The notes beneath the pieces were generated by a model, which saw only the letters and a list, made by a program, of their open reading frames with translations, searched no databases and had not been told where the DNA came from. Position numbers and translations under genes: made by a program. A stretch of DNA of 64,000 nucleotides from a bacterium (lineage in GTDB: Bacteria; Krumholzibacteriota; Krumholzibacteriia; Krumholzibacteriales; Krumholzibacteriaceae): contig CP070727.1 of assembly GCA_020350885.1 (NCBI GenBank), positions 977,960 through 1,041,959 on the forward strand. The letters are read 5' to 3'. Each line of letters starts with the position of its first letter. Positions within the stretch are counted from its first letter, which is position 1. Positions 15,066-43,207 of this stretch are shown in pieces.

Positions 15066-15101
15066 GCCTTGAGTACGGCCACTGTATACAGTATGAGTCT
15101 G

Positions 15102-15128
15102 CATGAACACCATTCGGAAACGTTCATG
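15102..15128. repeat. Inverted repeat upstream of the GH13 lipoprotein gene
   Basis: CATGAAC (15102-15108) and GTTCATG (15122-15128) are exact inverted repeats 13 bases apart, in the leader about 70 bases before the GH13 start. A separate 12-bp palindrome, ACTGTATACAGT, lies at 15081-15092. Either could be an operator, but short repeats like these also arise by chance. Confidence 0.3.
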
Positions 15129-15195
15129 TACCATATTGTTCTATGAGGAGTTACAGTATATGGCAGGATTGTGTCCGACGGAGGAGGGATTATCA

Positions 15196-18100: not shown

Positions 18101-18312
18101 CGTACCTGCGTGAGGACGATTACGATCGAGTGGTGGTCGTCCTGAACAACGAATCGGTATCGAAGCGGATCGAGCTGCCTCTCGGCGAATTCGGATTTTC
18201 AGACGGTATCCGGTTCGTCGACGAGCTGGGCAGCGGTGAATATCTGGTCGATGGAGGGAGTGTGGCACTCGAGATGCAGCCGATGACCGGCCTCATCCTG
18301 GTGCATCGATGA
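15196..18312 (+). CDS. Neopullulanase/cyclomaltodextrinase-type GH13 lipoprotein with three CBM48 modules
   Basis: Alpha-glucan hydrolase predicted to be membrane-anchored outside the cytoplasm. The 1,038-residue product has a lipobox (LLAASC, Cys27) and three tandem CBM48 modules (about residues 52-138, 171-257 and 296-382). Each module repeats VFLAGTxNDW ... YKFVxDGQW, keeping the glycan-stacking Trp and Lys. A GH13_20-type N-domain (about 388-495) and the catalytic barrel (from about 520) follow. VFYQIFPERFRNGDPENDP is a neopullulanase hallmark. Catalytic residues: Asp775 (GFRLDVPNE, nucleophile), Glu804 (IGEIWG, acid/base), Asp872 (GSHDTERF); region I is DKAFNH. ATG 15196 follows GGAGGAGGG. 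Exact substrate (pullulan, starch or cyclodextrin) is uncertain. Confidence 0.93.
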   Translation: MVSIMFRNRTVPLVLTGLAIGLLAASCSLEPPVKTLEEGRVVEKEIPVEEGKVAVTFTFKPDGTPGSVYLAGTMNDWNSSKDRLSDDDGDGIYQITLVLEPGSYQYKFVIDGQWKEDPAASSFVDDRYGGKNSVLELAADQRRITVGVGKGKATAVVTKKAAKKREAPSGAVRVTFLYEVGAGTAANVFLAGTINDWSPDSDPMTDDDGDGIYAITLELAPGRYEYKFVHDGQWLTDESAEDFTDDGFGGKNSVLNITPEDADTGLIVGMFERLPEDLGDAGAVVGREGDAEQLLKEVTFRFQPVISGVQNIFLAGTFNDWNDSKTRMTDDNGDGIYEVTLLLPVGRYQYKFVVDGQWFTDETAADFAPDGFGGQNSVINVDDSFKEVRFELGDGEMMTSDISSALDYSMVNPVSRDRIEFTARAHRDDVENVQLIYSVAGGQRKSVGMVHAEADAVFQYYMAALEEPATAEIQFTFQYRDGQAAFYATPKGIVEEMPVDDDMYVYSDDILPPFFTPEWAKDGVFYQIFPERFRNGDPENDPNFSEPYYEGVTKLPPSGRTNGEYFHFVRNWGDVSGLSKSPYRTDGRPDYYSFYGGDIAGVMEKLPYLADLGVTIIYFNPLNQARSNHKYDPVDYMTIDPHFADEETFKEFVKAAHELGIRIIVDKAFNHTGNWHFAFIDSRDRGRESVYWDWYEWKRWPLPEGDITNPLDYYDCWWGFGIHPNLNFDLSRPNNQENGITDAGMAQPNTDLVEYILNVARYWLGELGIDGFRLDVPNEVPFWFWKEFRNVVDEVNPDAFLIGEIWGNAMPWLGPYGFHSTMNYKFFREPVLKFFALGQGSAAQFDRELAPGRSLYPKQATQVMMNLVGSHDTERFLTIASNKEDRLMLAALFQMTYLGIPQIYYGDEVGMRGGKDPDNRRPFTWGWKENPRQERIHDFYRKIIGIRHTYPALRTGAFRTVLTEGKVYSYLREDDYDRVVVVLNNESVSKRIELPLGEFGFSDGIRFVDELGSGEYLVDGGSVALEMQPMTGLILVHR

Positions 18313-18369
18313 ACCGTCAGGGAAGTCGGGAATGCCGTGACCGCAGAGGTGTGGCGAACCGTCTGCATA

Positions 18370-18813
18370 TCACTTCACGATGATCAGCGAGTTTGTAAAA
18401 CCACCCTCCTGATCGGTATCCGGGTTGTTCGGATCGAGCTCCCAGCGGACGCCGTGATCGATCACGAACTTGTACTGGTACCTCCCGGGACGAAGCGGCT
18501 TTACAATCGTCCATATACCATCCCCGTCGTTGTCGCTCATCGGGTCGATCGTCGGATCGAACCGCCCCGTTCCCTCGGTTCCGCACCAGGTATTGAAGTT
18601 GCCGGCGAGGTTGACGTAACGCGCCGATGGAGCTTCATACTGGAACAGGATGCCGCCCTCGATCGGGTGCGGTTTGGGCAGGCGGTTTCTGATGACGCGC
18701 AGAAGCAGGCACCCTTCGAGAGGGAGCATCAGTGAGAGCAGTACCGAGACGACAAGAATCCCCCGGACGGTCTTCCGCGTGTGTCTTGTCATCATTGATC
18801 GAGTCCGATTCAT
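18370..18813 (-). CDS. Small CBM48 lipoprotein
   Basis: The 147-residue product has a signal peptide ending in the lipobox LPLEGC (Cys35) and a single CBM48 glycogen-binding module (about residues 50-146): YVNLAGNFNTW ... GRYQYKFVIDHGVRWELDP. The glycan-contact Trp, Lys and Trp are all present. There is no enzyme domain, so it is probably an envelope-tethered glucan-binding protein. It is the last gene of the leftward operon 28924-18370 and converges with the GH13 lipoprotein. A GTG at 18819 and an ATG at 18792 are alternative starts. Confidence 0.82.
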   Translation of the reverse strand: MNRTRSMMTRHTRKTVRGILVVSVLLSLMLPLEGCLLLRVIRNRLPKPHPIEGGILFQYEAPSARYVNLAGNFNTWCGTEGTGRFDPTIDPMSDNDGDGIWTIVKPLRPGRYQYKFVIDHGVRWELDPNNPDTDQEGGFTNSLIIVK

Positions 18814-18837
18814 CGGCACACAGCTCCGATCTTCGTA

Positions 18838-21069: not shown

Positions 21070-21080
21070 GTCTCATCCCT

Positions 21081-22679
21081 TTAGAAGTACAGTTTCAGAA
21101 ACATCTTGATCCGGTGATCGATGCGATCACTCGAGCCCTCATTCACGAAGTGATCGGTATGAACCAGATGCTCGCTTTTCCACGGATCGCCGTATTCGAC
21201 GAAGAACTCGGCTCCCCATCCAATGTCATAGCGGACCTGGGCAAAGACGGTCGCACGCGCCTCCGTCTCCTCGTTGACATTGAGGATGCGGAAGTATCCC
21301 TTGAGCTTTCCGGTGGCGTTGAACTCTACATCGAAGCCGTAGGCGAAGACCTCGCGGAAGGTGTTGAAGTCACGGATACGGCTCTGAATCCGGACCTTTG
21401 CCAGTTTGTTCTCCACCGAGAGCTCGGCAACGATGTTGGGATAGGTGAAGAAGTCGAAGACCTCGCCGGATCCATCGAATCCGTGCCAGCGGTTATAGGC
21501 GATCTTTCCCCGGAAGCCCTTGATGAATTCGACGTAGAGCTCGGTATAGAGGTTGTAGGTGGGACGGAGAAGACCGCCCTCCTCATCGACGATGCGTTTC
21601 TTGTAAAAGTCGTATGCCACAATGGCCGTGATCGCCTTCTTCGGCACGAGGTAGATCCCCTCGATGTGGTACTGGCGGCGGTTGAACTCGCGGTCCTCGT
21701 CGAAGCGCCGCGACAGGTAATCACGGAAATTTTCTCCAAAATCGTTGTACCATGCATGAATAATCAAATTCTGGAGGCGCACGTTTCTGATCTCCGCGGC
21801 GAAGACGTATCGGTTCTTGTTGGTGCGCACATCACTCGTCTCTACCTGGAACGGATCGCGGCTCATCGCATACTCTGTTATGAAGCTTGCATTCTCCAGG
21901 TTCAACGGACCGAGGGACAGCCCACCCTCGACGATGTTTCTCGGATAGATGGAGACGTCGAATGCGAGAACCTCGTTAAAGCTGCTGCTGAGGTACTGTT
22001 TCGTAACGTTTGTGTTCGTCCAGTCCTTGCGCAGGAATGTCGATCCCACCTCGAGCCGGTCGCCGAACGATTTCTTCCGCAGACGGAAGATGAGGTTGTC
22101 TGTGCCGTCGGCCACGGCCAGATCCGGGTCGTCGGTCCAGTTGAATGTGCCCCCGTCGTCGAAGTAGATAAGGGTGCCGCCGAGCCCCCTGAGCCTCCAG
22201 AGATCGACGTTCCAGAAATCCGCCCTGATACCGCTCGATTGCGGGCCCCAGTTGTCGTTCTTGAGCTTATCCTGCTCTACGAGGCGCAGGAGTGGTTCGT
22301 CGTGTATCCAGAACCTGTTCTGGCGGGCGAAGATGAATGTTTCCCACTTTTCACCGCGGAACTTGAGGTGGCCTTCGGCCGCGAGGTACGGTGGGCTCTT
22401 ATACTCGATGTCCGGTGTGAGGGATTCGTCCCGGTTCGATTGCGCCCGGAGCTTGAAGAATCCTTCCAGGTTCGTGTAGGGCCAGGTGAGGTACTTGAGC
22501 TCGAGATAGTGCCGCGGCTGTCCCTCACCGCTGCCCGGGCCGAACTGCCAGCGTTGCTCCATGCGCTGGAAGGAGGCTTCGACCTCGTAGAATCCCTCGA
22601 GCTTGTTGACGGCGTACGCCCCGCTGGAGGCGAGGACCACGCACACGAAGAAAGCGAATGCCGTGATGTTCCGTTTCAT
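21081..22679 (-). CDS. Predicted outer-membrane beta-barrel protein
   Basis: The 532-residue product has a clear signal peptide (MKRNITAFAFFVCVVLASS, about residues 1-24). The rest is a run of amphipathic strands rich in Tyr, Phe, Arg and Asp, ending KMFLKLYF with a terminal Phe. No named family is recognised. The charged, aromatic-rich strands resemble porins for sugars. An in-frame extension to 22835 overlaps the upstream gene; ATG 22679 gives the signal peptide and an ATGA overlap with it, so translation is coupled. It sits between a PorV-like barrel and a CBM48 barrel, which suggests a role in glucan passage (inference). Confidence 0.68.
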   Translation of the reverse strand: MKRNITAFAFFVCVVLASSGAYAVNKLEGFYEVEASFQRMEQRWQFGPGSGEGQPRHYLELKYLTWPYTNLEGFFKLRAQSNRDESLTPDIEYKSPPYLAAEGHLKFRGEKWETFIFARQNRFWIHDEPLLRLVEQDKLKNDNWGPQSSGIRADFWNVDLWRLRGLGGTLIYFDDGGTFNWTDDPDLAVADGTDNLIFRLRKKSFGDRLEVGSTFLRKDWTNTNVTKQYLSSSFNEVLAFDVSIYPRNIVEGGLSLGPLNLENASFITEYAMSRDPFQVETSDVRTNKNRYVFAAEIRNVRLQNLIIHAWYNDFGENFRDYLSRRFDEDREFNRRQYHIEGIYLVPKKAITAIVAYDFYKKRIVDEEGGLLRPTYNLYTELYVEFIKGFRGKIAYNRWHGFDGSGEVFDFFTYPNIVAELSVENKLAKVRIQSRIRDFNTFREVFAYGFDVEFNATGKLKGYFRILNVNEETEARATVFAQVRYDIGWGAEFFVEYGDPWKSEHLVHTDHFVNEGSSDRIDHRIKMFLKLYF

Positions 22680-23608
22680 AATCGAATCGTAGCTGCGAAC
22701 TGATAAGTATTTCCGAGCTCGTAGTGTGTTTCCAGCATCACATCGATCTGCCATCTGTTGTGTTTGAGACCGAAGCCCCCCGTCATGTTCTCCTGTTCGA
22801 ATCCACCGCGAAGGGCGACCGCCTCGAAGAACCATATCTCGCTTCCGATCCGCCCGACGGTATTGTCCAAGTCACCGTACCTGGATTTAATATCGTAGCT
22901 TACGAGAAGCAAGTCCCTGAACTTGTAGCTGACCCCGATGGCGATGTCACGATAGACGGGATCGGGATGAACGGTCGTCTTCAACAACTTGAGTTTCGGT
23001 TCGTTGATGTTGTAGACGACGGCGCCGATCGTCCATCGGTGTTTCGATCGGTAATGGATCCCGAGATCGAAGCTCGGCTTGACATCACGTCCTTCGTAGG
23101 CCGGATCGTTGTACTTCTCGTAGCCCGGAGCGGAGAGGGAGAAGATCTTTACGCTACCCCCGATAGAGAGCCCCTTGATGAAGGGCGCCTTCCGTGCGAT
23201 GGCGAAGTTGATCGTATCCTCGTGGTATATATCCTCGAGATCGAGCCGAACCCAGCTGACACCGAAGGCGGCGACGCCATGCCAGTGGTACGCTCCGCTG
23301 ATGTAATCGTTGGAGAGGTTGTCGACCGCATAGAGGAGTGTTCTGCACCCGGTGACCTCGAACCGTTCGATATGTGTTATACCCGCCGGGTTCCAGTAGA
23401 CCGCATTCACATCATCCGCCACTCCCACGAATGCCGAGCCCATGGCCCTGGGACGCGGTCCCATACGGGCATGACGGAAGTCGGCCCATCCCTGGTTGGA
23501 GGGGAGGATGACGGCGAGAAGAGATACGATGCCGATGACAGAACGGCGCAAACCCCGGCTAGCTCCTTCTGCTGATAACACGTTATTGCAATAGGTTACG
23601 CCAATCAT
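22676..23608 (-). CDS. PorV/PorQ-like outer-membrane protein (FadL superfamily)
   Basis: The 310-residue product has a signal peptide and then ARMGPRPRAMGSAFVGVADDVNAVYWNPAGI, split here as RPRAMGSAFVGVADD and NAVYWNPAGI, which is the N-terminal hallmark of PorV/PorQ and FadL-type barrels. The remainder is beta-strand rich and ends AATIRL. PorV proteins shuttle substrates of the type IX system, which would fit the T9SS-like tails on neighbouring surface proteins. ATG 23608 lacks a ribosome site; a TTG at 23548 with AAGGAG upstream also gives a good signal peptide. It overlaps the next barrel gene by four bases. Confidence 0.72.
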   Translation of the reverse strand: MIGVTYCNNVLSAEGASRGLRRSVIGIVSLLAVILPSNQGWADFRHARMGPRPRAMGSAFVGVADDVNAVYWNPAGITHIERFEVTGCRTLLYAVDNLSNDYISGAYHWHGVAAFGVSWVRLDLEDIYHEDTINFAIARKAPFIKGLSIGGSVKIFSLSAPGYEKYNDPAYEGRDVKPSFDLGIHYRSKHRWTIGAVVYNINEPKLKLLKTTVHPDPVYRDIAIGVSYKFRDLLLVSYDIKSRYGDLDNTVGRIGSEIWFFEAVALRGGFEQENMTGGFGLKHNRWQIDVMLETHYELGNTYQFAATIRL

Positions 23609-23638
23609 ATCAAGCGTTTTCTTAAGTTTGGCCCTTCC

Positions 23639-26600
23639 TTATTTAATGACGGCCACCGCTGCGTTCTGCCGTATCGTTCGCCGTCCTGCCGCCTGTGCGA
23701 AATTCACCGTGAAGCGGGCGATGTAGATGCCATATGGAACGACCCTGCCGGCACCGTCCCTGCCATCCCAGATGATACCGGTGATCCGTCTCGGCTTCTT
23801 GTCCAGAACATCCTCGGCGGTGAAGGATACCCTCTCTTCGAGGATCTGGACGCGTGTGCCCTCTATGTCGAAGATCTCGATCGTAACCACCGCCTCCTCC
23901 GCCAGGTAGAAGCTGATATTCGTCTCCTCGTAGAGGCCGTCACCGTTCGGCGAAAACGGGTTCGGCGAGAAGGCTATTCCCGAGAAGACCTCGTTTGGAT
24001 CGTAATTGAAGCTGGGGTTGTAGAATACGCCGTATGTACCGAGCCTGAGGATCTCAATGGTGATCAGGTTACCGAAGGGGTTCACGTTCCCACCGAGGTA
24101 GATCCATGTATTCGTCGTGTGGTTGTACTCGTAGGCGGCGAGCAGGTTCTCATCGAGGCCTTCAATCGAGTATTCCGGATAGTGGAGCGATATACGGGTC
24201 AGCCCCTCTAGTCGCTCGAGCGGGATCGGATCCATCCCCCCGCCCGGCGTGGCGAAAAGCTCGAGTGTTCTGATGACGTTGATCGAGGTTGCTCCCCCCT
24301 GGGGAAGGTTGAATTCCGAGAGATCCCGGGGACTGAGTCGGAAGGTGAACGGTATGCCGTCGAGATACTCGGGGACCACCTCGTGCGGTATGGAGATGAA
24401 TGTGCCCTCGGGCGCTCTCGCCTCGAAGTCCCGGCCGAGATCGATTCCCGTGATCTCGTACGTTGCGATCGGCTTCAGGATCTCCATCGTATAGAGGGGT
24501 GTAACGGCGATATTTCCGGATGGGTCCCGGGCCTCGATGATGAATTCGATATTTCTCGTGCTGTCGAGGTCGGCCACCGGTACGGTGGCAGTGATCTCGT
24601 CCACCGGCAGGTCGACGCTCCAGATCTCGCCGCCTGCGTACCCCATCTCGATCTCCCCCATCCACACACCGCCAAGATTCGTGTCTGCCTGCCACATGAA
24701 CGTGGCCCGGGAGACCTCGTCGTCGTCGCTGATGACGGCGGTGTAGTAGAGGGGTGCATTGATAAGGGCGATGTAGGGGACCGTCTCCTCGATGATCTCG
24801 CTGATACTGATCACGGGGGGCCCCTGATCCTCGAAGGCGGTCGCTTCGAGAACCACCGCCGTCTCTCCCCTCTCGGACCGTTTGACGGCCTCACGGCTCT
24901 TGTAGTTCAGCAGATCGCTCTGGCTCCGGCCCGCCTTCTTGCCGAGCCCCGGGGAGGTGACCATATCGATGATGTTCGGGTCGCGATCACTGTCGAGACC
25001 GCCGCAGAACCTCCATTCGCAGTCGGAGGCGTCGTTCACCCACCGGGTATCCCCGAAGTTGTTGTCGTCGCTGTGACCATCGTGGCTCGTCATGAGCACC
25101 GTGATATCCCACTTGAGGATATCCTGCTCGGTCGGATTTCCGAGGGCATCCTTGGAGACGATGGCGGTTATCGTGTTCTGGTTGTAATCGGAGAGGAGCA
25201 CGATGTCATTGTCGCCCTTTCTCGCGGTCGACGACCATGCCGCCGGAGTATTCTGGTTGTTCGATGTAATAACCCCCTTGTACCAGCCATCCATGACGAT
25301 GGCGTAATCCCATGCATCCCACTTTGCGAAGTCGTTCTGCCGGTTCGGCAGCCCCTCGGTGGCACCTCCCTTGAGGGCGTCGATATAGATGTCGATCTTC
25401 TGTATGTTGATGTCCGCATAGGTGGGGTTCCAGTCGGCGGTTCCCTCGTCGGCTGGATTCGGAAAGTTTCCCATCCGGACCATGAAGGCGTAGCTGGGGA
25501 TGACCTCGCCGCCGAAGATGTTGGTCGTCTCGAAGATGACGACCTCTTCCAGATCGAAGGCACCGAGCACGAAGACAACGTTCGAGGGATAATTATAGTA
25601 GAGGCCGGTCCTGCCGAAAAGGTTCGGCCCGTGATCGTCGCCGGTCTCGTCGGTGATCCTTCGTATCGGCTCGAAGGCCCCCTCGACATCGATAATGACC
25701 GTGGTCACGTTTCCATTGATGTTGAGAGAATCCCTGGCCGTGATCTGGAGCTCGTACGAGCCCGTCGAGATGTCGGGTGCGACGAGGTGCTGGTGGCTGT
25801 AGGTTCCGTCACCGGGAGTTACATCGCCGTTCGTGCCGTCGTCCTTCATACGCTGGAAACGGGGTCCGCCGAGTGGGGAGAGGTCGATGTAGACATTGCC
25901 GATGCCGTCATCCGCATCGGTCAACGTCGCCGTGAATCTCACCATACCGCCCGCCTGCACCTCTGTGGGTTCCACCCTGCGGGATGAGATCACCGGTGCG
26001 CCCGGAAGGATGAGAGGGGGGGAGTAGTAGTGAAGAACGAGATCCGGCTGTTCGAATCCCCAGTCCGCCGGTTCCTCCTCGAGATCGAGTGTCGAATCGT
26101 GGGGGGACGAATCGAAGGGTCCGTGCTTGTATGGAATGTCATTGATATATACCTCGTACATAATGTAGACCTGTGCTCGGAGGGAGATCGGTGTCCTCCC
26201 CCGGAACACCCGGTAGGGGATCGTGTACTCTACGTACCCGGGCCCCTTCTCCACCCACGATTCCCTGACGTTAATCGTCTCGACGTAATTGCCGAGATCG
26301 CTGGTCGAGATGTAGGTCTTCGAGCCGTCATCCCACCAGTTCCATTCGTCGTTCGCCCATTTTCTGAAGTCTGCGTATTCGTCGGATGTATACTTGTACG
26401 TGAATGTGTACTCCGGTCTCAGGGAATGACCGTAACGGATCGGAAACTCGAACGGGTCACTCGGAGCTCCGGCGGCATCGCCTCCCGTCTCCAGGATCGT
26501 TGCGATGTGCACATTCCCGACCGACCAGGTACTCGAGAAGTCGATGGTCACCTTGAATCCCTCGAGGCTCGTCTGTACAGAGACATCGGTCAGATCCATC

Positions 26601-28924
26601 TGCTCGAGCGTGTTGTGCGCCGGGTCTGGCTCGGGCCAGGAGGGATCGCTGAAGGAGATCGTTGAGATCTGCTCTATGAAGAATGTCGTTCCCTCGACGG
26701 GGAACGCACCGGCCGTACCGTCGATCTCGACGATGCCCGGTCTACTTCCGGCGGAAAATTCCGCGACGACCTTTCCGTCGGCATCGAAGTCCGCCGAAAG
26801 TGGTGTTAGGGTACCGGCGGAAACGGGGTAGTAGGTAAATGTGATCGATCCCCCCGCTTGGGGTACCGCGTTCCCATAGACGTCTATCTTCTGCGCCTCG
26901 ATCGGCATCGTTTCGTTGATACCCATCGATGACATTGTGCTCGTTATCCTGATCGCGTCCACCGGTCCCGGAACAACGGTAACCTCGACAAACTCACCCC
27001 CCTCATCACCGATCATTCCCAGTTCCTTGTTTCCGTAGAAAGCTGTCGCCCGGATCAAGAGTTTGCCGGCGATTGTGGCCGTGAGCGACGTGAAGAATTC
27101 GCCGTTCGCCGATGTCTCGGTTGATGGAATCGTGAAGGTTCCCTGGCCCGTCGAGCTCTGATCGAATGAGAAGTTCACCTCTACGCCGGCTATCCTCACC
27201 GGATTGAGGTTTATATCGAGTAGCTGTCCACGGATGACGACCTCGTCGGTGCCGTCTGCTACGACGGTGTTCTCGACTGCGTAGAGCTCGAAGTACTCCG
27301 GTTCCGGTGAACGGATGCCGATCTTGAATCGTCCCGTAATGGTAGTGTCCGCGTTCTCGACAAAGACCCGCAACACCTCGATTTCGTCATCCCTGAGGAG
27401 GAAGCTGCCCCTTCCGTCCGTAAGCCGGATCGACTCCGTCTGAACGGTATCGGTCTCGAAAAAGATCAGGTCTCCCCGGGGTTGCGAATAATTATTGAGC
27501 TTCGTTGCACGAAGGTTTATGGGATCGAGCCGGTCATCCAGGTCGAAGAGGTCCCGGCGGTCGGAATCGTCCCTCGCCTCGATCGTCATCTCTGCGTAGA
27601 AGAATATACCGGAGTCGGGAATGCTGATCGTGGTCGCCGTGCTGAGGATCTCCGTGCCGTCGACATCGATCAGTACGAGTTTCGTCGCCCTGACCGCCGA
27701 TAGCTCCAGGATACCGACATGGATGCTGTCGTTCCCGGCAACCTGCACCATGGCCGTATCGGCTATGTATCCCGGCGCTGCGGCGACGACATGGAAGGTT
27801 CCGACGGGGGCGAGGATCTGGAAATCTCCGGCGGTTGGGAGGATTGTCCGGGCATCCTCGTCGGGAATCTCACCAGTCGCACTGTCGTAGGCCGCGACGG
27901 CAATCTCACCCCCCGGTCCCTCGGAGAAGACCACTTCGCCGGTAATCTTGCCGACGCGGGGGAGGACGAAGTCGATGTTTCGCACGGTATCCTGACTCAC
28001 GACGATGCCTGGCTGCCTGATCCTCGAGTAGCCTTTGGCCCGGGCCTCGACGAAGTACGGACCGTCGGGGAGACCGCCGATGAGGTAAGCACCCCCGCCG
28101 GGCTCCGTCTGGACGGTCCGTATGAGTTGATCGGTCTCTTCATCGAAAGCCGATACGGTCGCAACCGTCTGGTCGTCGAGAGGATCGATATACGTCACCG
28201 TTCCCTCGATCGCCCCGATGGGTAGCTGCTCGAGGACATAGGCGAACATCGAATCGAGCTCGACCGGTTCGCCGACATCCCAGGTCGTCCCGCTAGGCCT
28301 GCTGAGCTGGTCGCCGTCGTTGACCATGCAGTCGAGGGGACCCTTCGATCCGCCCTCTTGCGTCGAGACGATCTCGATGTATACCGTATCGCCGATCGAG
28401 ACCCCCAAGGTATCGAGACCGATGCCGATCTCCTCGAAGCCGGTGTTGTTGGCCCAGCCGAGCGACTGCTCTCCATCATAGATTGCATCCCACGAGGATG
28501 TTTCCCCGTTCCACTTTCTGAGCTCCTGCCAGGTGTTGTCCATGTTGCACCAGGCCTGGTAATCGATCTTCGTGGGCGCCGTGTTCCATGCGACCGCATG
28601 CCCCCACGCGTCCGTCGTGCCGCCCGAGGTATTGCCGACGGCGATCATGATGCCGAGCTGGTTGCCGTTCCAGCCGCCCTTGTCGTACTCGAATCCGATA
28701 TAGAGCCTCTCGTCATCGTGTGTGATGTAGACGGAACCGATGTCGATCTGGGAGTGTTCGGTGTCACTAACGTCTTCATCGACCAGGTTTACGGGGAGGA
28801 AATCGTTTGTGCCGTCGACGACGATCGTCTGTGGAACCCCGCCGACAAGCAGTGACAGGACGCCCGCGAAGGCGATCAATCCAAACCCGACAAGTATAGT
28901 TGTGAAAATGTTGCTTCTGGTCAC
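23639..28924 (-). CDS. Giant glucan-associated surface protein with glucodextranase-C-like module
   Basis: The 1,761-residue product has an export signal (about residues 1-30) and a CBM9/DOMON-like domain (about 33-232) very similar to that of the protein at 12552-14990. Two carboxypeptidase-regulatory-like folds (about 235-403), a long linker, two invasin-type Ig domains (about 553-655, 653-755) and further E-set regions follow. A module at about 1085-1325 resembles the C-terminal domain of glucodextranase and amylopullulanases (ETGDDHGPNLFG ... YPSNVVFVLGAFDLEEV). It ends with a FlgD/T9SS-like tail (about 1646-1761, FSPNPFSPNGDGLYEETNI ... YGIYIARF). No catalytic domain is seen. Start is GTG with GAGG upstream. 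Probably a surface adhesin or scaffold for alpha-glucan. Confidence 0.75.
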   Translation of the reverse strand: MTRSNIFTTILVGFGLIAFAGVLSLLVGGVPQTIVVDGTNDFLPVNLVDEDVSDTEHSQIDIGSVYITHDDERLYIGFEYDKGGWNGNQLGIMIAVGNTSGGTTDAWGHAVAWNTAPTKIDYQAWCNMDNTWQELRKWNGETSSWDAIYDGEQSLGWANNTGFEEIGIGLDTLGVSIGDTVYIEIVSTQEGGSKGPLDCMVNDGDQLSRPSGTTWDVGEPVELDSMFAYVLEQLPIGAIEGTVTYIDPLDDQTVATVSAFDEETDQLIRTVQTEPGGGAYLIGGLPDGPYFVEARAKGYSRIRQPGIVVSQDTVRNIDFVLPRVGKITGEVVFSEGPGGEIAVAAYDSATGEIPDEDARTILPTAGDFQILAPVGTFHVVAAAPGYIADTAMVQVAGNDSIHVGILELSAVRATKLVLIDVDGTEILSTATTISIPDSGIFFYAEMTIEARDDSDRRDLFDLDDRLDPINLRATKLNNYSQPRGDLIFFETDTVQTESIRLTDGRGSFLLRDDEIEVLRVFVENADTTITGRFKIGIRSPEPEYFELYAVENTVVADGTDEVVIRGQLLDINLNPVRIAGVEVNFSFDQSSTGQGTFTIPSTETSANGEFFTSLTATIAGKLLIRATAFYGNKELGMIGDEGGEFVEVTVVPGPVDAIRITSTMSSMGINETMPIEAQKIDVYGNAVPQAGGSITFTYYPVSAGTLTPLSADFDADGKVVAEFSAGSRPGIVEIDGTAGAFPVEGTTFFIEQISTISFSDPSWPEPDPAHNTLEQMDLTDVSVQTSLEGFKVTIDFSSTWSVGNVHIATILETGGDAAGAPSDPFEFPIRYGHSLRPEYTFTYKYTSDEYADFRKWANDEWNWWDDGSKTYISTSDLGNYVETINVRESWVEKGPGYVEYTIPYRVFRGRTPISLRAQVYIMYEVYINDIPYKHGPFDSSPHDSTLDLEEEPADWGFEQPDLVLHYYSPPLILPGAPVISSRRVEPTEVQAGGMVRFTATLTDADDGIGNVYIDLSPLGGPRFQRMKDDGTNGDVTPGDGTYSHQHLVAPDISTGSYELQITARDSLNINGNVTTVIIDVEGAFEPIRRITDETGDDHGPNLFGRTGLYYNYPSNVVFVLGAFDLEEVVIFETTNIFGGEVIPSYAFMVRMGNFPNPADEGTADWNPTYADINIQKIDIYIDALKGGATEGLPNRQNDFAKWDAWDYAIVMDGWYKGVITSNNQNTPAAWSSTARKGDNDIVLLSDYNQNTITAIVSKDALGNPTEQDILKWDITVLMTSHDGHSDDNNFGDTRWVNDASDCEWRFCGGLDSDRDPNIIDMVTSPGLGKKAGRSQSDLLNYKSREAVKRSERGETAVVLEATAFEDQGPPVISISEIIEETVPYIALINAPLYYTAVISDDDEVSRATFMWQADTNLGGVWMGEIEMGYAGGEIWSVDLPVDEITATVPVADLDSTRNIEFIIEARDPSGNIAVTPLYTMEILKPIATYEITGIDLGRDFEARAPEGTFISIPHEVVPEYLDGIPFTFRLSPRDLSEFNLPQGGATSINVIRTLELFATPGGGMDPIPLERLEGLTRISLHYPEYSIEGLDENLLAAYEYNHTTNTWIYLGGNVNPFGNLITIEILRLGTYGVFYNPSFNYDPNEVFSGIAFSPNPFSPNGDGLYEETNISFYLAEEAVVTIEIFDIEGTRVQILEERVSFTAEDVLDKKPRRITGIIWDGRDGAGRVVPYGIYIARFTVNFAQAAGRRTIRQNAAVAVIK

Positions 28925-31829: not shown

Positions 31830-33140
31830 GTGAGAGGGTCTTTGGCGGGACGTATGAGAGAAGCGTTCCGGTTACGGATTCACTGTACTACTGTGCATAC
31901 CGTTATAGCGGCGTGTGTAATCGCCGTCGCGGTCGGCGCCTTCCTGCCGCTGCTTATGGGTTGCGGGGAAAAACAGAAGCAGCCTATGGAGATCGTCGTG
32001 TGGGAGCAGAAGGATCCCGAGGAACAGCTCCTGCTCCGAAGGCACCTCGATGCCTTTATGGAGAAACACCCGGGCCTCGTGATCTCCACCCTCCACTTCG
32101 AGACCGACCAGCTCCACAGCCAGTTTCAAACAGCGGCGCTCGCAGGAGGAGGACCGGATCTCGTCTACGGGCCGTCGGATAAGGTCGGCCCCTATTCCGT
32201 CATGGGACTGATAAAACCGCTCGAGGGGCTCTTCGATGCCTCCTTCTTCGAGCTCTACGAATCGAGCAGCGTGGCCGTACTCGATGGACACATCTACGCA
32301 GTCCCGGATCAGATCGGTAACCACCTGATGCTCCTCTACAACAAGGAGCTCGTGACAAGGGTGCCGGGCAACAGTGACGAGTGGATCGCGATATGCAGGG
32401 AGAATACGGTCGATCTCGACGGGAACGGTATTCCCGACCGCTACGGGCTTGTCTTCAATTTCAACGAACCGTTCTGGCTTATCCCGTTTATCGGCGGTTT
32501 CGGCGGGTGGGTGATGAATGCGGATGGTGCGCCGACATTGAATACGGAGGCGGTCATCGGCGCCCTCCGGTTCCTCGCCGATCTCAGGAACCATCACAAG
32601 GTGATTCCCCGTGAGAGCAACTACGAGGTCAGCGATACGATGTTCAAGCAGGGAATGGCAGCCTTCATCATCAACGGTCCCTGGTCAATCAAGGCATACG
32701 TGAAGGCCGGGATCGACCTGGGTATCATACCGCTGCCCGTGATCACGGCAACCGGCAGGCACCCGACGCCGATGGTGTCCAGCAAGGGATACTCGATCAA
32801 CATCAATGTCGACGAAGCGCGCCTTTCGATCGTCAAGGAGCTCCTCGTCTACCTGACATCGAAAGAGGTCCAGCGTGAAATCGCTACCGAGCTCCTCATC
32901 CTTCCGAGCCTGAAGGATCTCTACCAGGATCAATCGATCACGCAGCACGAGATCCTCAGGGGGTCGCTCGAGCAGTCGAAGCTCGGAAGGCCCATGCCCC
33001 TCGTGCCGGAGATGCGGGCGATCTGGGATGCCATTCGCCCATTCTACCAGAGTGTTCTCGGCGGCCAGATGACACCTGAGGATGCCGCAGAACAGATGCA
33101 GGAGAGGGCCGAGAAGAAGATTGCCGAGATGCGCGGGTAG
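31830..33140 (+). CDS. Maltose/maltodextrin-type ABC substrate-binding lipoprotein
   Basis: Family 1 extracellular solute-binding protein. The 436-residue product has a signal with lipobox LLMGC (about residue 41), then the SBP fold: IVVWEQKDPEEQ, ALAGGGPDLVYGPSDKVGPY, a central FIINGPWSI segment typical of maltodextrin binders (GPW), and YLTSKEVQ near the C-terminus. GTG 31830 follows GGGAGGG by six bases and lies downstream of a good promoter; in-frame starts further upstream lie in the znuA gap or are poorer. The matching permeases are 4.5 kb downstream and the ATPase 6.3 kb downstream. Its stop abuts the stop of the convergent gene with no base between. Confidence 0.87.
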   Translation: MRGSLAGRMREAFRLRIHCTTVHTVIAACVIAVAVGAFLPLLMGCGEKQKQPMEIVVWEQKDPEEQLLLRRHLDAFMEKHPGLVISTLHFETDQLHSQFQTAALAGGGPDLVYGPSDKVGPYSVMGLIKPLEGLFDASFFELYESSSVAVLDGHIYAVPDQIGNHLMLLYNKELVTRVPGNSDEWIAICRENTVDLDGNGIPDRYGLVFNFNEPFWLIPFIGGFGGWVMNADGAPTLNTEAVIGALRFLADLRNHHKVIPRESNYEVSDTMFKQGMAAFIINGPWSIKAYVKAGIDLGIIPLPVITATGRHPTPMVSSKGYSININVDEARLSIVKELLVYLTSKEVQREIATELLILPSLKDLYQDQSITQHEILRGSLEQSKLGRPMPLVPEMRAIWDAIRPFYQSVLGGQMTPEDAAEQMQERAEKKIAEMRG

Positions 33141-36078: not shown

Positions 36079-36786
36079 GTGAAGGTCATTGGATTACTCG
36101 GCGGCATGAGCTGGGAATCTACGCTGACGTACTACCGCATCATCAACGAGGGGGTGCGGGCCCGTCTGGGTGGTTCCCACTCGGCCGAATGCGTCATCTA
36201 CTCGGTCGACTTTGAACCGGTCGAGCAGCTCCAGCACGAAGGTCGGTGGGATGAGCTCACGGAGGTCCTGATACGCTGTGCGCAGAGGATCGAAGCGGGC
36301 GGTGCCCAGCTGCTTCTCATCTGTACAAATACGATGCATCGTATGGCTGATGAGGTAGAGGCGGCGATCACGATTCCCCTTATCCATATTGTCGATGCCA
36401 CAGCCGAGGAGATAGTACGGGCGGGGATCGGAACGGTCGGGCTTCTCGGCACCAGGTTTACCATGGAGGAGGACTTCTACCGTGAACGGCTCCGTCTCGG
36501 ATTCGGCATCAATGTCGTGATTCCCGGCGAGGAGGATCGTGAGACGGTACACGGGGTGATCTATGAGGAGCTGGTCAGGGGGAGGATCGAGGAACGATCG
36601 CGCCTGGAATTCACACGGGTGATCGAATCGCTGGCGGATCGCGGCGCCGGCGGGATCGTGCTCGGGTGCACGGAGATTCCGTTACTGGTGGGTCCTGATG
36701 ACACCGATGTGCCGCTCTTTGATACGACGCGGATCCACGCCACGGCGGCGGTGGCGGCCGCACTCGGAGCGGGGGGCCATCCATGA
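36079..36786 (+). CDS. Aspartate/glutamate racemase family protein
   Basis: Cofactor-independent racemase fold (YgeA/RacX-like). The 235-residue product has GLLGGMSWESTLTYY at the N-terminus, the first catalytic Cys in LICTNTMH and the second in GIVLGCTEIPLL; both thiols of the two-base mechanism are present. The GTG start at 36079 follows GGGGGGAA and lies eight bases after the preceding stop. The stop overlaps the next gene as ATGA. The amino acid could be aspartate, glutamate or a broader set. Confidence 0.88.
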   Translation: MKVIGLLGGMSWESTLTYYRIINEGVRARLGGSHSAECVIYSVDFEPVEQLQHEGRWDELTEVLIRCAQRIEAGGAQLLLICTNTMHRMADEVEAAITIPLIHIVDATAEEIVRAGIGTVGLLGTRFTMEEDFYRERLRLGFGINVVIPGEEDRETVHGVIYEELVRGRIEERSRLEFTRVIESLADRGAGGIVLGCTEIPLLVGPDDTDVPLFDTTRIHATAAVAAALGAGGHP

Positions 36787-37556
36787 GGGGAACGGTCGGT
36801 TCCTGGCTTCTCAAGCAGCCGATCGCACACAGGGGTTACCACTCCGGTGATCACGCGTGTCCGGAGAACTCGATTGCGGCGTGTGAACGTGCGATCGAGA
36901 AGGAATTCGCCATCGAGATCGACATCCAGTCGACCGCCGACGATCGACTCGTCGTCTTCCATGACGATAACATTCTCAGGATGACCGGTATCGACGGGGC
37001 GGTGCGGTCCATGGAAGCCGGCCGGCTCTGCTCTTTTCGTCTCCTTGGCTCGGACGAGACCATTCCGCTCCTCGTCGATGTGCTCGAGCTCGTCGGTGAC
37101 CGGGTACCGCTGCTCATCGAGATCAAGAACAGGGGGCGGGTGGGGGCGATGGAGAGGCGTCTTCTACAGCTTCTCCTGCACTACCAGGGCCGCATCGCCG
37201 TCCAGTCGTTCAATCCATTCTCGATTCGCTGGTTCCGGATTCATGCACCGCGCATCGAGCGGGGTCTCGTCTCCGGAGATTTCAGGCACGAACCCATCGC
37301 ATGGTACCGGAAACTCATCCTCAAACATCTCCTCCTCTCGAATATATGCTGTCCGCATTTCATCAATTATGATATACAATCGCTGCCGAACCGGGCGACC
37401 GATCGGCACAGGAGACTCGGGATCTCTATCATCGGCTGGACAGCGAGGTCGATGGAGGAATATATGCGGGCACGACAGCTGTGCGAGAACGTCGTATTCG
37501 AGGGCTTCGATCCAACCGAGATGGACCGTGACGGTGCCGTGCCCCATGGAACGTAA
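36783..37556 (+). CDS. Glycerophosphodiester phosphodiesterase
   Basis: GDPD-family TIM barrel that releases glycerol-3-phosphate from glycerophosphodiesters. The 257-residue product shows the family motifs: IAHRGYHSG ... PENSIAACERAIE, then EIDIQSTADDRLVVFHDD. These supply the catalytic His, Glu, Asp and second His. LIEIK and a C-terminal IIGWT segment complete the fold. There is no signal peptide, so it is probably cytoplasmic. It overlaps the racemase gene by four bases and precedes the sugar permeases by 51 bases. Confidence 0.9.
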   Translation: MRGTVGSWLLKQPIAHRGYHSGDHACPENSIAACERAIEKEFAIEIDIQSTADDRLVVFHDDNILRMTGIDGAVRSMEAGRLCSFRLLGSDETIPLLVDVLELVGDRVPLLIEIKNRGRVGAMERRLLQLLLHYQGRIAVQSFNPFSIRWFRIHAPRIERGLVSGDFRHEPIAWYRKLILKHLLLSNICCPHFINYDIQSLPNRATDRHRRLGISIIGWTARSMEEYMRARQLCENVVFEGFDPTEMDRDGAVPHGT

Positions 37557-37607: not shown

Positions 37608-38483
37608 ATGAAAACGAAATACTTGATATGGTTCTTCCTGCTGCCGTCGGTAGTGGTGATCGGCTGCGTGGTCTTCTATCCCTTCCTCTACAACTTCTAC
37701 ATATCCACAACGAATATGAGCCTCTACCACATCAGGGATTACACTTTCAAGGGACTCGTGAACTACAGGGAGATATTCTCCGAACCAGATCTCTACTACT
37801 ATTTCGGGAAGACGATCATCTGGACACTCGTGAACCTCTTCTTTCATCTCGTGCTCGGTATCTCGATCGCCATGCTGCTGAACAGACGTATCGTCGGCCG
37901 CTCGGTATTCCGTGCGCTCCTGATACTGCCGTGGGCGATGCCCCAGTACATCAGCGCACTCACCTGGAAGGGGATGTTCAACTATCAGTACGGCTCGATC
38001 AACCTTATTCTGCAAAAGCTATTCCACGTACAGGGCATCGAATGGTTCTCGAACGAGACGTGGGCTTTTGTCGCCCCAATCCTGACCAATATCTGGCTCG
38101 GATTCCCCTTTATCATGGTCGTGACCCTCGGCGGATTGCAGAGTATCCCGCGTGATCTCTACGAGGCGGCGGAGATAGACGGGGCCTCTGCGATTCAGCG
38201 CTTCACGCACATCACACTGCCGATGCTCAAGCCGGTTCTCACTCCGGCGGTTATTCTCGGCACGATCTGGACCTTCAACAACCTGAATGTCATCTGGCTC
38301 GTGACCGAGCGTGGCCTTCCTGCCGACAAGTCGCACATACTCGTGACCTACGTATACAAAGCTGCATTCACCTACTACCGCTACGGCTATGCGGCGGCTT
38401 TTTCGATATTCATCTTCATAATTCTGCTCATCTTCGTGCTCGTCTATCTCAAGCAGACGAGAACCTTGGAGAGGGAGGCCTAG
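37608..38483 (+). CDS. Sugar ABC transporter permease, MalF-type
   Basis: First inner-membrane subunit of a CUT1 carbohydrate importer. The 291-residue product shows about six helices and the cytoplasmic EAA loop EAAEIDGASAIQRFTHITLP (about residues 185-204), which contacts the MalK-type ATPase. It lacks the large periplasmic P2 loop of E. coli MalF, as is usual outside enterobacteria. The next gene starts at the very next base. Confidence 0.9.
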   Translation: MKTKYLIWFFLLPSVVVIGCVVFYPFLYNFYISTTNMSLYHIRDYTFKGLVNYREIFSEPDLYYYFGKTIIWTLVNLFFHLVLGISIAMLLNRRIVGRSVFRALLILPWAMPQYISALTWKGMFNYQYGSINLILQKLFHVQGIEWFSNETWAFVAPILTNIWLGFPFIMVVTLGGLQSIPRDLYEAAEIDGASAIQRFTHITLPMLKPVLTPAVILGTIWTFNNLNVIWLVTERGLPADKSHILVTYVYKAAFTYYRYGYAAAFSIFIFIILLIFVLVYLKQTRTLEREA

Positions 38484-39332
38484 GTGGAAAGGCGCAGCAG
38501 AAATGTTACGGGTATCATCCGGAAGGTCTCGATCTATGTCCTTCTCGTCTTTATTACGCTGGTCACGGTCTATCCGATCGTCCAGATCTTCGGTATCTCG
38601 CTCCGTCCTTCCGATCAGCTCTATTCAACCTCGCTCAAGATAATCCCCGATGATGCAACCTTCGAGGCTTACCGCACCGTGCTCTTCGAGAAGGATTTCT
38701 TCACCTGGCTGCGCAACAGTCTGATCGTCGCCCTCTCCGTTTCCATCTTCGGGGTTGCGCTCGCCTCGACCGCCGGGTATGCGTTCTCGCGCTTCCGTTT
38801 CAGGGGGCACAGGGCGGGCCTCGTCGTCATCCTCATCACGCAGATGTTTCCGGCGACGATGCTGCTTCTTCCCCTGTATGTCTTGATGAAGCGTTTCGGA
38901 TTGATCGATACCCTCCTGGGTATCATTATCGCCTATACGGCGACCGCACTCCCCTTCTGCATCTGGACGATGAAAGGTTACTACGATACGATACCGCGGG
39001 ATCTTGAGGAGGCCGCGGTCATCGACGGTACAACGCAGCTCGGGGCGTTCCTTCGCGTCACGCTGCCGCTGTCGGCACCGGCGCTCACCATCACGGGACT
39101 CTTCAGTTACATGGCCGGCTGGTCTGAGTTCATCGTCGCCCGTGTCATTATCAACAGGCAGGGCCTTTACACGCTTCCCCTCGGACTCGAGAGCCTCAGC
39201 AGCACCTTCCAGACAGAGTGGGCCAACTACGCCGCAGGAAGTATCATCGTCTGCATCCCGGTCGTCGTGCTCTTTTTGCTGCTGAGCAAGTTCCTCATCT
39301 CCGGCCTCACGCTCGGCGGCGTGAAGGGGTAG
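38484..39332 (+). CDS. Sugar ABC transporter permease, MalG-type
   Basis: Second CUT1 permease subunit. The 282-residue product has about six helices and the EAA loop EEAAVIDGTTQLGAFLRVTL (about residues 175-194). It ends KFLISGLTLGGVKG, the conserved MalG tail. The GTG start immediately follows the MalF-type stop. The ATPase gene lies opposite and convergent, 119 bases away. Confidence 0.9.
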   Translation: MERRSRNVTGIIRKVSIYVLLVFITLVTVYPIVQIFGISLRPSDQLYSTSLKIIPDDATFEAYRTVLFEKDFFTWLRNSLIVALSVSIFGVALASTAGYAFSRFRFRGHRAGLVVILITQMFPATMLLLPLYVLMKRFGLIDTLLGIIIAYTATALPFCIWTMKGYYDTIPRDLEEAAVIDGTTQLGAFLRVTLPLSAPALTITGLFSYMAGWSEFIVARVIINRQGLYTLPLGLESLSSTFQTEWANYAAGSIIVCIPVVVLFLLLSKFLISGLTLGGVKG

Positions 39333-39450: not shown

Positions 39451-40557
39451 TTACGATGCGGCGAGGGACCTGCCCGTCTCGCTCTCGAAGAGATGTATCC
39501 TGTCGAGGTTCAGAAAGAGCTCGACCGTATCACCGACGGAGTAAGTCGTCTGCGAGGGTTCCCGAGCGACGATCTCCTTGTCACCACATTTCAGGTGGAA
39601 GATGATCTCGTTACCGAGGGGCTCCGCAACCTCGACCGCCGCCGGGCAGGCATGTAGATTCACCTCGGGTATTTCGGGCTTTTCCAGGTAGATGTCCTCC
39701 GGACGTATCCCGATCGTGACCGAACGTTCGGAGTATCCTCGGAGGGTTTCGCTGAAACGCTTCGGAATGGGGATGCCGGTAAAGGAGGTTCTGACCTCGG
39801 GTGCCTCAGTACCCGTGATCTCACCTTCGATGAAGTTCATGGCCGGAGAGCCGATGAAGGCGGCCACGAATCGTTCGGCGGGCCTGTCGTAGAGCTCGAG
39901 CGGCGTGCCTACCTGCAGGATTCGACCCTCGTGCATGACGGCCAATCGATCACCGAGCGTCATCGCCTCTACTTGGTCGTGTGTCACGTAGATCATTGTC
40001 GTCTGGATCTTGAGGTTGAGCTTGCGGATCTCGGTACGCATCTGCACGCGCATCTTTGCGTCGAGGTTCGAGAGCGGCTCATCGAAAAGGAAGACACTCG
40101 GTTTCCGCACGATCGAGCGGCCGAGTGCCACGCGCTGGCGCTGTCCCCCCGAGAGGGCCTTCGGTTTCCGTTCCAAGAGCCCGTCGATCCCGAGGATACC
40201 GGCCGCCTCCTCGACCCTGGTTCGGATCTCGTCCTTGGGATACTTCCTGAGCTTGAGCCCGAAGGCCATATTGTCGTACACAGACATGTGCGGATAGAGG
40301 GCGTAGTTCTGAAATACCATCGCCACGTTCCGGTCCTTCGGAGGGAGATCGTTCACGACCGTGCCGTCGAAGCGTATCTCTCCCTCCGTGGTGTCCTCGA
40401 GACCGGCAACCATTCGAAGCACCGTTGATTTTCCACAACCGGACGGTCCGACGAGGACGAGAAGCTCCTTGTCTTCGATCGTGAGATTGATGTCCGTGGC
40501 AGCGACGATATTCCCGCTGTAAATCTTTTGGACGTTCGTGAATGTTACTTCAGCCAT
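39451..40557 (-). CDS. Sugar ABC transporter ATPase, MalK/UgpC/MsmX-type
   Basis: Energises CUT1 importers. The 368-residue product has Walker A GPSGCGKST, Q-loop FQNYALYPH, signature LSGGQRQRVALGRSI, Walker B VFLFDEPLSNLD, switch His in YVTHDQ, and a C-terminal OB/TOBE regulatory domain (about residues 240-360). It is the only MalK-type ATPase in the window and so is the likely partner of the permeases at 37608-39332. AGAGGA precedes the ATG. It is divergent from the debranching enzyme across a 115-base gap. Confidence 0.92.
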   Translation of the reverse strand: MAEVTFTNVQKIYSGNIVAATDINLTIEDKELLVLVGPSGCGKSTVLRMVAGLEDTTEGEIRFDGTVVNDLPPKDRNVAMVFQNYALYPHMSVYDNMAFGLKLRKYPKDEIRTRVEEAAGILGIDGLLERKPKALSGGQRQRVALGRSIVRKPSVFLFDEPLSNLDAKMRVQMRTEIRKLNLKIQTTMIYVTHDQVEAMTLGDRLAVMHEGRILQVGTPLELYDRPAERFVAAFIGSPAMNFIEGEITGTEAPEVRTSFTGIPIPKRFSETLRGYSERSVTIGIRPEDIYLEKPEIPEVNLHACPAAVEVAEPLGNEIIFHLKCGDKEIVAREPSQTTYSVGDTVELFLNLDRIHLFESETGRSLAAS

Positions 40558-40623: not shown

Positions 40624-40672
40624 GTCCGGCTCGCAGGGGCCTCGGTGAGTCACATGCGAAGGAGTCGTCAGG

Positions 40673-43207
40673 GTGATATACTCACGATATGTGAATGCGC
40701 GCGGTACCGTGCCGAATCGCAAACATCATATACGGACGGGTGACGTTCGGCACATTAGCTCCACCGTCCTGCTGGCCGTACTCGTCGCCGTTGCCTGCAT
40801 CGGAGTGTGTACCGGTTGCGGTCCGGCCGCGGGAACGCGCGACTCCGGGGGTGATTTTGTGAATGAATCAGTACCGGGGGAACTGATCCGGGAGGCCGAA
40901 TCGACACGTGTGCGCTGGGAGATCGTCGTTGGTGCAGGCGCATCACGCGAGTTCATTTACACGAACAAGGTTGCCACACACTTCAGCGGGGAGGCTACGG
41001 GGGCGCACAGCAGAAGCTACCATGGCCTTTTCTGCGCCATGCACGAATACCTCGACTCGTGGGATCTCCACGTAAACGGGGAGCCGATCGATCCGGGCAC
41101 GATCGCCAGAAGCTTTGCCTTTCCACACGTTCTGTATAGAGAGTATCCGCATGCCGGGCTCGTCGAGGAGATCTTCGTGCCGGATGTCGAGAACGGACTC
41201 GTCGTCCGCTTCGGTGGTTCGCTGACCGGAGAATGTGCACTCGTCCCCTGGATCGATATGCGTTTCATATGGGATGTACCGCAGCCCGAGTACCGCATCT
41301 TCTGGGAGGAGGGTAACAACCTGCTTCTCGTCTCGCGGGTCGATGCCCCGTTTGCACAGGGACGGCCTCGATGGCTGGCCGTCACAGCCGATTGCGGTCT
41401 CCGCTTCATCGCGGAGGAACGGCGACGTGAAACACACTATCCGAAGGATGCTGCAAGACGGGCTATGGGCAAAACGTATCCCTTCTCACCCGGCCGATTG
41501 TTGTTTCTGTTCGAGGGGCCCACCCCTCTACACGTCACCGTTGCATTCGGTCTGGGAGTGAGCGAGGAAGAGGCTGCCTCCCAGGCGCTCCGGCTGGTTA
41601 CCGGTTACGAGGAACTGAAACGTGTAAAGCTTGCGCGCGTTGAGGGACTCTTCTCTCTCGCCTCGGTAGAGACTGAGAACGAGCGGTTCAACAGGGCGCT
41701 CAGGTGGGCGCGCGTCTCCATGGACAACCTGATCATGGACCAGCGCGGCCGCGGCATCTATGCCGGATTTCACTGGTTTCCGAACTATTGGGGCAGGGAC
41801 AGCTTCATCTGCCTTCCCGGGGCGTGCCTGGCGACGGGGGCGATGCAAGAGGCCCGGGAGATTCTTCTATCATTCATGGAGTATCAGCAAACGGAATCCG
41901 GCAGCCGCCACCTGGGGCGCTTCCCGAACATCGTAAATCCCCAGAATCTGCAGTACGCCGGCGTCGACGGTACCTGGTGGCTCGTGCGGGCCGCCTGGAA
42001 ATACTACCGGGCGAGCGGCGACCGGGACTTTCTCCTGCGCGCCTTTCCCCGGATAGAGCTCGCTATTGAGGGAGCCCTCGCTCATGCAGTCGACGGATTG
42101 GGTTTTCTCACGCACGGCGACGGAGAGACCTGGATGGATGCGGGTGGGGAGGCACATCCATATTCCCCCCGGGGGAGCAGGGCGGTCGAGGTGCAGGCGT
42201 TGTTTCATCACGGCCTCCTCGTCGGGGCCGTATGGGCGCGTGAGCTCGCGGCCGCCGAGGGCCGTGGAGGGCCTGCCGCCGCAGGTGCGGGTGAAGCGGT
42301 CGTGGTTGACACCACGCACCTCGAACGATTGGCGAGTCGATGGGAGCAACGGGCGCAGCGTCTGCGTGAAAGCTTCAACAACCTTTTTTGGAACAGGCAG
42401 GCAGGGACACTCTACGATCATTTGAATGCAGACGGGAGCCCTGATGGCCAGATACGCCCGAACGCGATTCTGGCCCTCTGGGTGTCGCTGGATGTTGCTG
42501 ATTGTGAACCGGGGCCGATGAACGACGACCGGTTCGATTTTCTCGAGCGGAACAGGTTGCTCACGCACCGGCAGGCCGCATCGATTGTCGGCACTGCATT
42601 GAAGACGATCTGTCTCGAGCACGGAATCGCATCACTCTCACCAGACGATCCTGCCTTTCATCCGCATCACCTGAATCTCGAACGCTACTACTATGATGAG
42701 GCGTATCACAACGGGGACGTGTGGGAGTGGTTGTCGGGACCCATGGCGAGCTGCCTGCTCGCCGTCGGCGAGGTTGAGACGGCGTGGGATCTCGTGGCGC
42801 CGCTCGTTGACGAGATTCTCGATGAGGCGTGCGTGGGCAGCCTCAGAGAGATCAGAGACGGTCTCCATGAGGAGGGCAGGGAGGAGTTCGGGGGTGCCAC
42901 GAGCCAGGCTTGGTCGTTGGCCGAGTTTATCAGGATCTGTCATACCGGTTTCATACGGGCGGGGCCCCCCGAGGGGGGTGTACATCCGGGAACGGATGCA
43001 ACGGGCGCCGGATCCCCCGTGACGATCACGCACGGAGTTGCGGACCCGCAGCAGTTACCTCTGGCCTGGGGTCGTACACGGTTTTTCGTTCCCCTGCTTC
43101 TCGCACCGCACGTACGACCGTCCGGGGCCTACCTCACGGTTCGAGGTGTTGCGGTGCCCGGGGCGGAGGGCCGGAAACGGGCTCAACCCCTGCGACGTCT
43201 CCGGTAG
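40673..43207 (+). CDS. Lipoprotein glycogen-debranching enzyme (amylo-alpha-1,6-glucosidase, GH133-like)
   Basis: The 844-residue product has a signal and lipobox-like Cys (GVCTGC, about residue 49), then an N-terminal GDE domain starting near residue 75 (REFIYTNKVATHFSG ... RSYHGLF). A C-terminal (alpha/alpha)6 barrel follows (about 330-780) with WFPNYWGRDSFICLPG, DAGGEAHPYSPRGSRAVEVQ, QIRPNAILALW and GGATSQAWSLAEFIR, all typical of prokaryotic GDE. Such enzymes are normally cytoplasmic, so an exported, lipid-anchored form is unusual. About 60 residues after the GDE core are low-complexity. GTG 40673 follows AAGGAG by eight bases. It probably removes branch points from imported or surface-bound glucan. 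Confidence 0.87.
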   Translation: MIYSRYVNARGTVPNRKHHIRTGDVRHISSTVLLAVLVAVACIGVCTGCGPAAGTRDSGGDFVNESVPGELIREAESTRVRWEIVVGAGASREFIYTNKVATHFSGEATGAHSRSYHGLFCAMHEYLDSWDLHVNGEPIDPGTIARSFAFPHVLYREYPHAGLVEEIFVPDVENGLVVRFGGSLTGECALVPWIDMRFIWDVPQPEYRIFWEEGNNLLLVSRVDAPFAQGRPRWLAVTADCGLRFIAEERRRETHYPKDAARRAMGKTYPFSPGRLLFLFEGPTPLHVTVAFGLGVSEEEAASQALRLVTGYEELKRVKLARVEGLFSLASVETENERFNRALRWARVSMDNLIMDQRGRGIYAGFHWFPNYWGRDSFICLPGACLATGAMQEAREILLSFMEYQQTESGSRHLGRFPNIVNPQNLQYAGVDGTWWLVRAAWKYYRASGDRDFLLRAFPRIELAIEGALAHAVDGLGFLTHGDGETWMDAGGEAHPYSPRGSRAVEVQALFHHGLLVGAVWARELAAAEGRGGPAAAGAGEAVVVDTTHLERLASRWEQRAQRLRESFNNLFWNRQAGTLYDHLNADGSPDGQIRPNAILALWVSLDVADCEPGPMNDDRFDFLERNRLLTHRQAASIVGTALKTICLEHGIASLSPDDPAFHPHHLNLERYYYDEAYHNGDVWEWLSGPMASCLLAVGEVETAWDLVAPLVDEILDEACVGSLREIRDGLHEEGREEFGGATSQAWSLAEFIRICHTGFIRAGPPEGGVHPGTDATGAGSPVTITHGVADPQQLPLAWGRTRFFVPLLLAPHVRPSGAYLTVRGVAVPGAEGRKRAQPLRRLR

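Follow-up and report, generated by a model that had tools for sequence, protein, structure and literature searches.

A predicted exported GDE_C-type (amylo-alpha-1,6-glucosidase-like) protein encoded opposite a MalK-type ATPase in a Krumholzibacteriota-like genome

The GDE_C gene and its surroundings

The gene at 40673-43207 (+ strand) has a GTG start and codes for an 844-residue amylo-alpha-1,6-glucosidase-like protein of the Pfam GDE_C family, in which it falls into an exported-type clade. It lies in the window (the whole 64,000-nucleotide stretch of DNA that was analysed, positions 977,960-1,041,959) of a 4.13 Mb genome assembled as a single contig, where it is the sole PF06202 gene, and a protein search retrieved relatives that bear titles such as Candidatus Krumholzibacteriota, Eisenbacteria and Latescibacteria. 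A first-pass annotation of this DNA had placed the gene opposite a MalK-type ATPase and, in fact, a gene for a MalK/UgpC-type ABC ATPase (39451-40557, - strand) is head to head with it across a gap of 115 bp. A divergent promoter shared by the two genes was considered and rejected, as a single sigma-70-like match was found, on the - strand only, and none on the + strand. Downstream of the GDE_C gene, no terminator-like fold was detected (z -0.74).

Other genes for alpha-glucan transport and processing are found on the + strand of the window. A MalF-type permease (37608-38483) and a MalG-type permease (38484-39332) have as their top NCBIfam families PRK10999 MalF (182.6 bits, below the cut-off of 392) and PRK10998 MalG (177.3 bits, below the cut-off of 261); thus, the equivalog cut-offs are not reached, yet these are the top-scoring families for both permeases. 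Further upstream are a MalE-like solute-binding protein with the lipobox LLMGC (31854-33140, in an open reading frame that opens at 31407), a neopullulanase/cyclomaltodextrinase-like GH13 protein with CBM48-type N-terminal modules and the lipobox LAASC (15196-18312), whose nearest PDB entries are neopullulanases and cyclomaltodextrinases, and a small protein that has a signal-like N-terminal segment and carries a starch-binding domain of the CBM20 type (11416-12321; Pfam CBM_20, 23.7 bits). A homologue of the latter is encoded beside the GDE gene in locus L016.

The local transporter could also be Ugp-like, as the ATPase passes the NCBIfam UgpC subfamily cut-off, with MalK second, and a gene for a glycerophosphodiester phosphodiesterase (GDPD; 36783-37556) directly precedes malF, an arrangement also seen in Ugp-type systems. 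This glycerol-3-phosphate setting was set aside because the permeases fit MalF and MalG best and because orthologous MalF/MalG genes adjoin MalE and a neopullulanase-like GH13 gene in loci L014 and L018, where the order is GDE-MalE-GH13-MalF-MalG.

The CBM20 and GH13 genes belong to a longer run of alpha-glucan and envelope genes (11416-28924) that additionally includes an 830-residue FlgD_ig-tailed protein (12498-14990), a 743-residue CBM48 protein, a PorV-family outer-membrane protein and a 1761-residue Glucodextran_C/choice-of-anchor protein (23639-28924). The 830- and 1761-residue proteins open near-identically (GGVPQTI.VDG.NDFLP), which suggests that they share a predicted exported domain. 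A serpin (serine protease inhibitor) gene is also present at 9848-11059 (- strand; Pfam, 368 bits).

Family, fold and catalytic residues

The first-pass annotation had assigned the protein to the glycogen-debranching (GDE_C) family, and this assignment holds: PF06202 matches it with 202 bits, against a gathering score of 21, and GDE_C ranks first among its sequence matches. The NCBIfam model for archaeal-type glycogen debranching (TIGR01561) scored it at 120 bits, short of the 364 that this model requires. According to Pfam and to an AlphaFold2 model (pLDDT 80, pTM 0.86), the 844 residues are made up of just two domains, a beta-rich one at the N-terminus and GDE_C. The model shows the beta-sandwich and (alpha/alpha)6 barrel of 7vma, the amylo-alpha-1,6-glucosidase of the archaeon Thermococcus gammatolerans STB12, which is its top structural match (Z 30.8, 560 aligned residues, rmsd 3.7); the second match, the dextran dextrinase 9ju0 (Z 29.9), is tied with it within one unit.

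Both acids expected in this family have counterparts in the protein. Asp489 (TWMD; codon at 42137-42139, + strand) matches the catalytic Asp1241 of the Candida glabrata enzyme in a profile alignment, and Glu726 (LREI; codon at 42848-42850, + strand) falls, in the family alignment, in the column of the second acid that canonical GDE_C proteins conserve (SEI), so that its match to Glu1492 is an indirect one, by way of the SEI glutamate of those proteins. In the same family alignment, the aspartate is kept in all 40 exported-type members that cover the column and the glutamate in all 38. An excerpt of PMC4837477 reports that mutation of either Asp1241 or Glu1492 abolishes debranching by C. glabrata GDE.

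Known enzymes resemble the protein to different extents. The T. gammatolerans enzyme is likewise a stand-alone GDE_C-type protein, similar along the whole chain, although the two are only 18% identical; in the portion of PMC9142091 that describes it, where export is not discussed, this enzyme debranches maltodextrin directly and prefers medium chains. The glucosidase (GC) domain of C. glabrata GDE (5d06) has the same fold, whereas eukaryotic GDE carries an extra 4-alpha-glucanotransferase part that is absent from our protein. Canonical bacterial and archaeal GDE_C proteins (GH133), such as Sulfolobus GH133, share the Pfam domain and align at both catalytic acids, but form a separate clade; GH133 members, the Sulfolobus one for instance, are treated as glycogen-breakdown enzymes in the extract of PMC11046441. 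By its Pfam domain, predicted fold and catalytic acids, our protein is a member of this GH133-type (GDE_C) amylo-alpha-1,6-glucosidase family, and it is quite likely to hydrolyse alpha-1,6-glucosidic bonds.

Export signal and exported-type relatives

The N-terminal signal segment noticed in the first reading is indeed present. Residues 1-49 (40673-40819, + strand), compared with relatives, make up a predicted export signal in which a basic n-region is followed by a hydrophobic uncharged stretch (residues 28-41) and then by Cys42 (40796), Cys46 (40808) and Cys49 (40817). The peak 11-residue hydropathy is 3.31 within the first 80 residues, compared with 1.89 in the remainder of the protein. Shuffling of the first 80 residues attained the peak of 3.31 in 52 of 20,000 trials, and shuffling of the whole protein did so in 6 of 5,000. 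Judged from its sequence, the protein is very probably exported from the cytoplasm.

This property had been presented as if it were singular, and here the first reading has to be corrected, as export of GDE_C is, as predicted from sequence, a trait of a whole subfamily and not a one-off. From 148 hits, 82 distinct GDE_C open reading frames were gathered and split, by the higher phmmer score against either the window protein or one canonical protein, into 42 exported-type and 40 canonical members, the latter drawn largely from the 30 top-scoring PF06202 matches and 20 chosen lower-scoring places among 84 matching genomes. The N-terminus could be evaluated in 38 and 39 of them, respectively (4 and 1 were left out). 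With a hydropathy heuristic used instead of SignalP (11-residue hydropathy of at least 1.8, preceded by a basic residue), a signal was found in 29 of the 38 exported-type members compared with 0 of the 39 canonical ones, and raising the threshold to 2.0 gave 26 and 0. The contrast drawn in the first reading with canonical GDE_C proteins, normally cytoplasmic and here signal-less, is thus borne out.

By eye, signals can also be recognised in L010, L044, L145 and L153, which brings the exported-type count to 33 of 38. The expectation that homologues would keep the signal is consequently largely confirmed, except for L143, L144, L147 and L149, which lack one, and for L002. In the latter (L002:2701-3120, Candidatus Latescibacteria 4484_7), the N-terminus is disrupted or the contig chimeric at this point, and a search of the upstream frames revealed no clear signal. 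In the signal-less L144, L147 and L149, a large open reading frame matching the CBM48 protein of the window is found 4-43 bp away from the GDE_C gene.

In a midpoint-rooted tree of 77 sequences, the exported-type members are monophyletic (37 of 37, support 1.0), and the window protein falls within a 26-member clade (support 1.0) that leaves the four signal-less members outside. Relatives without a signal, which the first reading had named as grounds for refutation, thus do not clearly refute it. The tree labels were assigned with a looser hydropathy cut of 1.65, at which the canonical L155 is labelled signal-like.

The proposed tie to alpha-glucan ABC uptake is supported by gene context: 23 of 33 exported-type loci (22 without L150, whose MalK match scores only 78 bits) have a Mal-type transporter gene or a GH13, CBM48 or CBM20 gene no more than 6 kb away. 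The remaining 10 loci have no such neighbour; several loci are incomplete, and the queries were proteins encoded in the window, which means that neighbours unlike them are missed. Among the nearest relatives, the head-to-head MalK gene is present in L002, L003, L004, L006 and, for the genome of L026, L094. L005 lacks this arrangement, which is also found in the more distant L007.

Predicted-exported amylo-alpha-1,6-glucosidase-like proteins are already known from the literature, at least as described in excerpts. According to a section of PMC10714752, XAC2598 of Xanthomonas citri 306 is predicted to be periplasmic, is encoded in a starch utilization locus and has an amylo-alpha-1,6-glucosidase-like stretch, a resemblance to our protein that is one of description only. 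XAC2598 differs in the make-up of its locus, with a TonB-dependent transporter, an MFS protein and a GH97 enzyme, and that section assigns it no GH family. Similarly, MCA0553 of Methylococcus capsulatus has an amylo-alpha-1,6-glucosidase domain and is predicted to be secreted (PMC4257694, in part), but the portion of text concerned assigns it to type I secretion, with no signal peptide, and gives it a discoidin domain. No description of the exported GDE_C clade was found in searches of open-licence PMC texts, and the clade appears to be a little-studied branch of a known enzyme family.

Proposed function and alternative readings

We consider it likely that the exported GDE_C protein clips alpha-1,6 branches while its substrate is in the periplasm, ahead of uptake by the ABC transporter, its location, anchor, substrate and place in the order of steps being deduced from family, residues, fold and context. 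In such a course, the neopullulanase-like GH13 lipoprotein, at the surface or in the periplasm, would shorten external alpha-glucan together with starch-binding partners, as expected from its family, and the resulting branched maltodextrins would arrive in the periplasm. There, the GDE_C protein, either lipid-anchored or soluble, would hydrolyse the alpha-1,6 branch points by a glucoamylase-like acid/base mechanism with Asp489 and Glu726, and the linear products would be imported by the MalE/MalFGK-type ABC system. Against this course, no outer-membrane importer was identified. The genome has no match to GH77 4-alpha-glucanotransferases, and GH57 members and a glycogen synthase homologue are present in it. 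As maltodextrin is a direct substrate of the T. gammatolerans debranching enzyme, exported debranching by a stand-alone enzyme is mechanistically reasonable even if no glucanotransferase takes part.

Outside the cytoplasm, debranching is usually performed by pullulanases. The exported-type clade, whose members come from several bacterial families, largely uncultured, and are linked to genes for the import of alpha-glucan, would add GDE_C proteins to the means of debranching there. As a rule for annotation, a 'glycogen debranching enzyme' that belongs to this clade should not be taken as evidence of glycogen storage. The question is also raised of why the window genome has an exported-type GDE_C alone.

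While export is well supported, lipidation is only somewhat probable, as the protein's own lipobox is ambiguous and two relatives, L026 from the same family and L005 from the same order, have signals of the signal-peptidase-I type without a usable lipobox. The first-pass annotation had suggested a lipid anchor at a cysteine near residue 49. Cys49 is present, but its context (VCTGC) has an unusual cysteine at position -3, and a PROSITE-like lipobox pattern has a single match in the protein that ends at Cys42 instead. The Cys42 box lies 16 residues past the last charge, in line with the clear AAGC lipoboxes of three close relatives, L003, L004 and L006, which lie 15, 15 and 16 residues past it; both observations speak against an unlipidated protein. 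If the protein were exported unlipidated, cleaved by signal peptidase I or membrane-anchored, it would be a soluble or inner-membrane-tethered periplasmic enzyme, a reading that seems the less probable of the two and that agrees with the signals of L026 and L005, with the signal-peptidase-I-type signal of most members of the wider exported-type clade and with the odd residue in the Cys49 box.

Periplasmic debranching as proposed above also depends on where translation starts, and the first reading had named a downstream start, with loss of the signal, as grounds for refutation. Initiation in frame at 40673, 40691 or 40709 keeps the signal, and initiation at GTG 40805 or GTG 40859 would remove it. 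The Shine-Dalgarno-like sequence GAAGGAG (40658-40664, + strand), 8 nt upstream of GTG 40673, offers only moderate pairing (predicted anti-SD duplex of -8.3 kcal/mol), far weaker than the strongest predicted SD of the gene, which is part of GGGGGTGAT (40847-40861, + strand, including the in-frame GTG 40859) and reaches -15.2 kcal/mol. Such a candidate internal start therefore exists, although it does not clearly refute the first reading, and strong SDs are likewise found just past the signals of L026 and L005, three related genes in all with that of the window. That the main product begins at GTG 40859 and is cytoplasmic, with the upstream signal stretch untranslated or only sometimes translated, is nevertheless very unlikely: the signal-bearing starts of L003 (-14.2), L004 (-12.2), L006 (-11.4) and L026 (-11.7 kcal/mol) have good SDs of their own, and the hydrophobic stretch is conserved within the subfamily. 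Internal initiation as a family trait was set aside as unconvincing, as strong internal SDs in 33 members were not clearly more frequent at in-frame starts (3 of 39) than at starts out of frame (2 of 44). Equally improbable is the production of two forms by alternative initiation, a full-length envelope enzyme from GTG 40673 acting on imported glucan and a signal-less cytoplasmic glycogen enzyme from GTG 40859, although, if true, it would explain the lack of any other GDE_C gene despite the glycogen synthase homologue. As to the substrate, it is unlikely, though less so than a cytoplasmic start, that the exported protein is a glycosidase of GDE_C fold whose substrate is some glucoside different from branched alpha-1,4/1,6-glucan. 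The fold is common to GH15, GH63, GH94, GH116 and other families, with structural scores that are nearly equal, and this reading would also be consistent with the low identity to 7vma and with the lack of GH77 in the genome; against it stand the first rank of GDE_C among the sequence matches and the neighbouring genes for a neopullulanase-like GH13 protein, CBM48 and CBM20 proteins and Mal-type transport.
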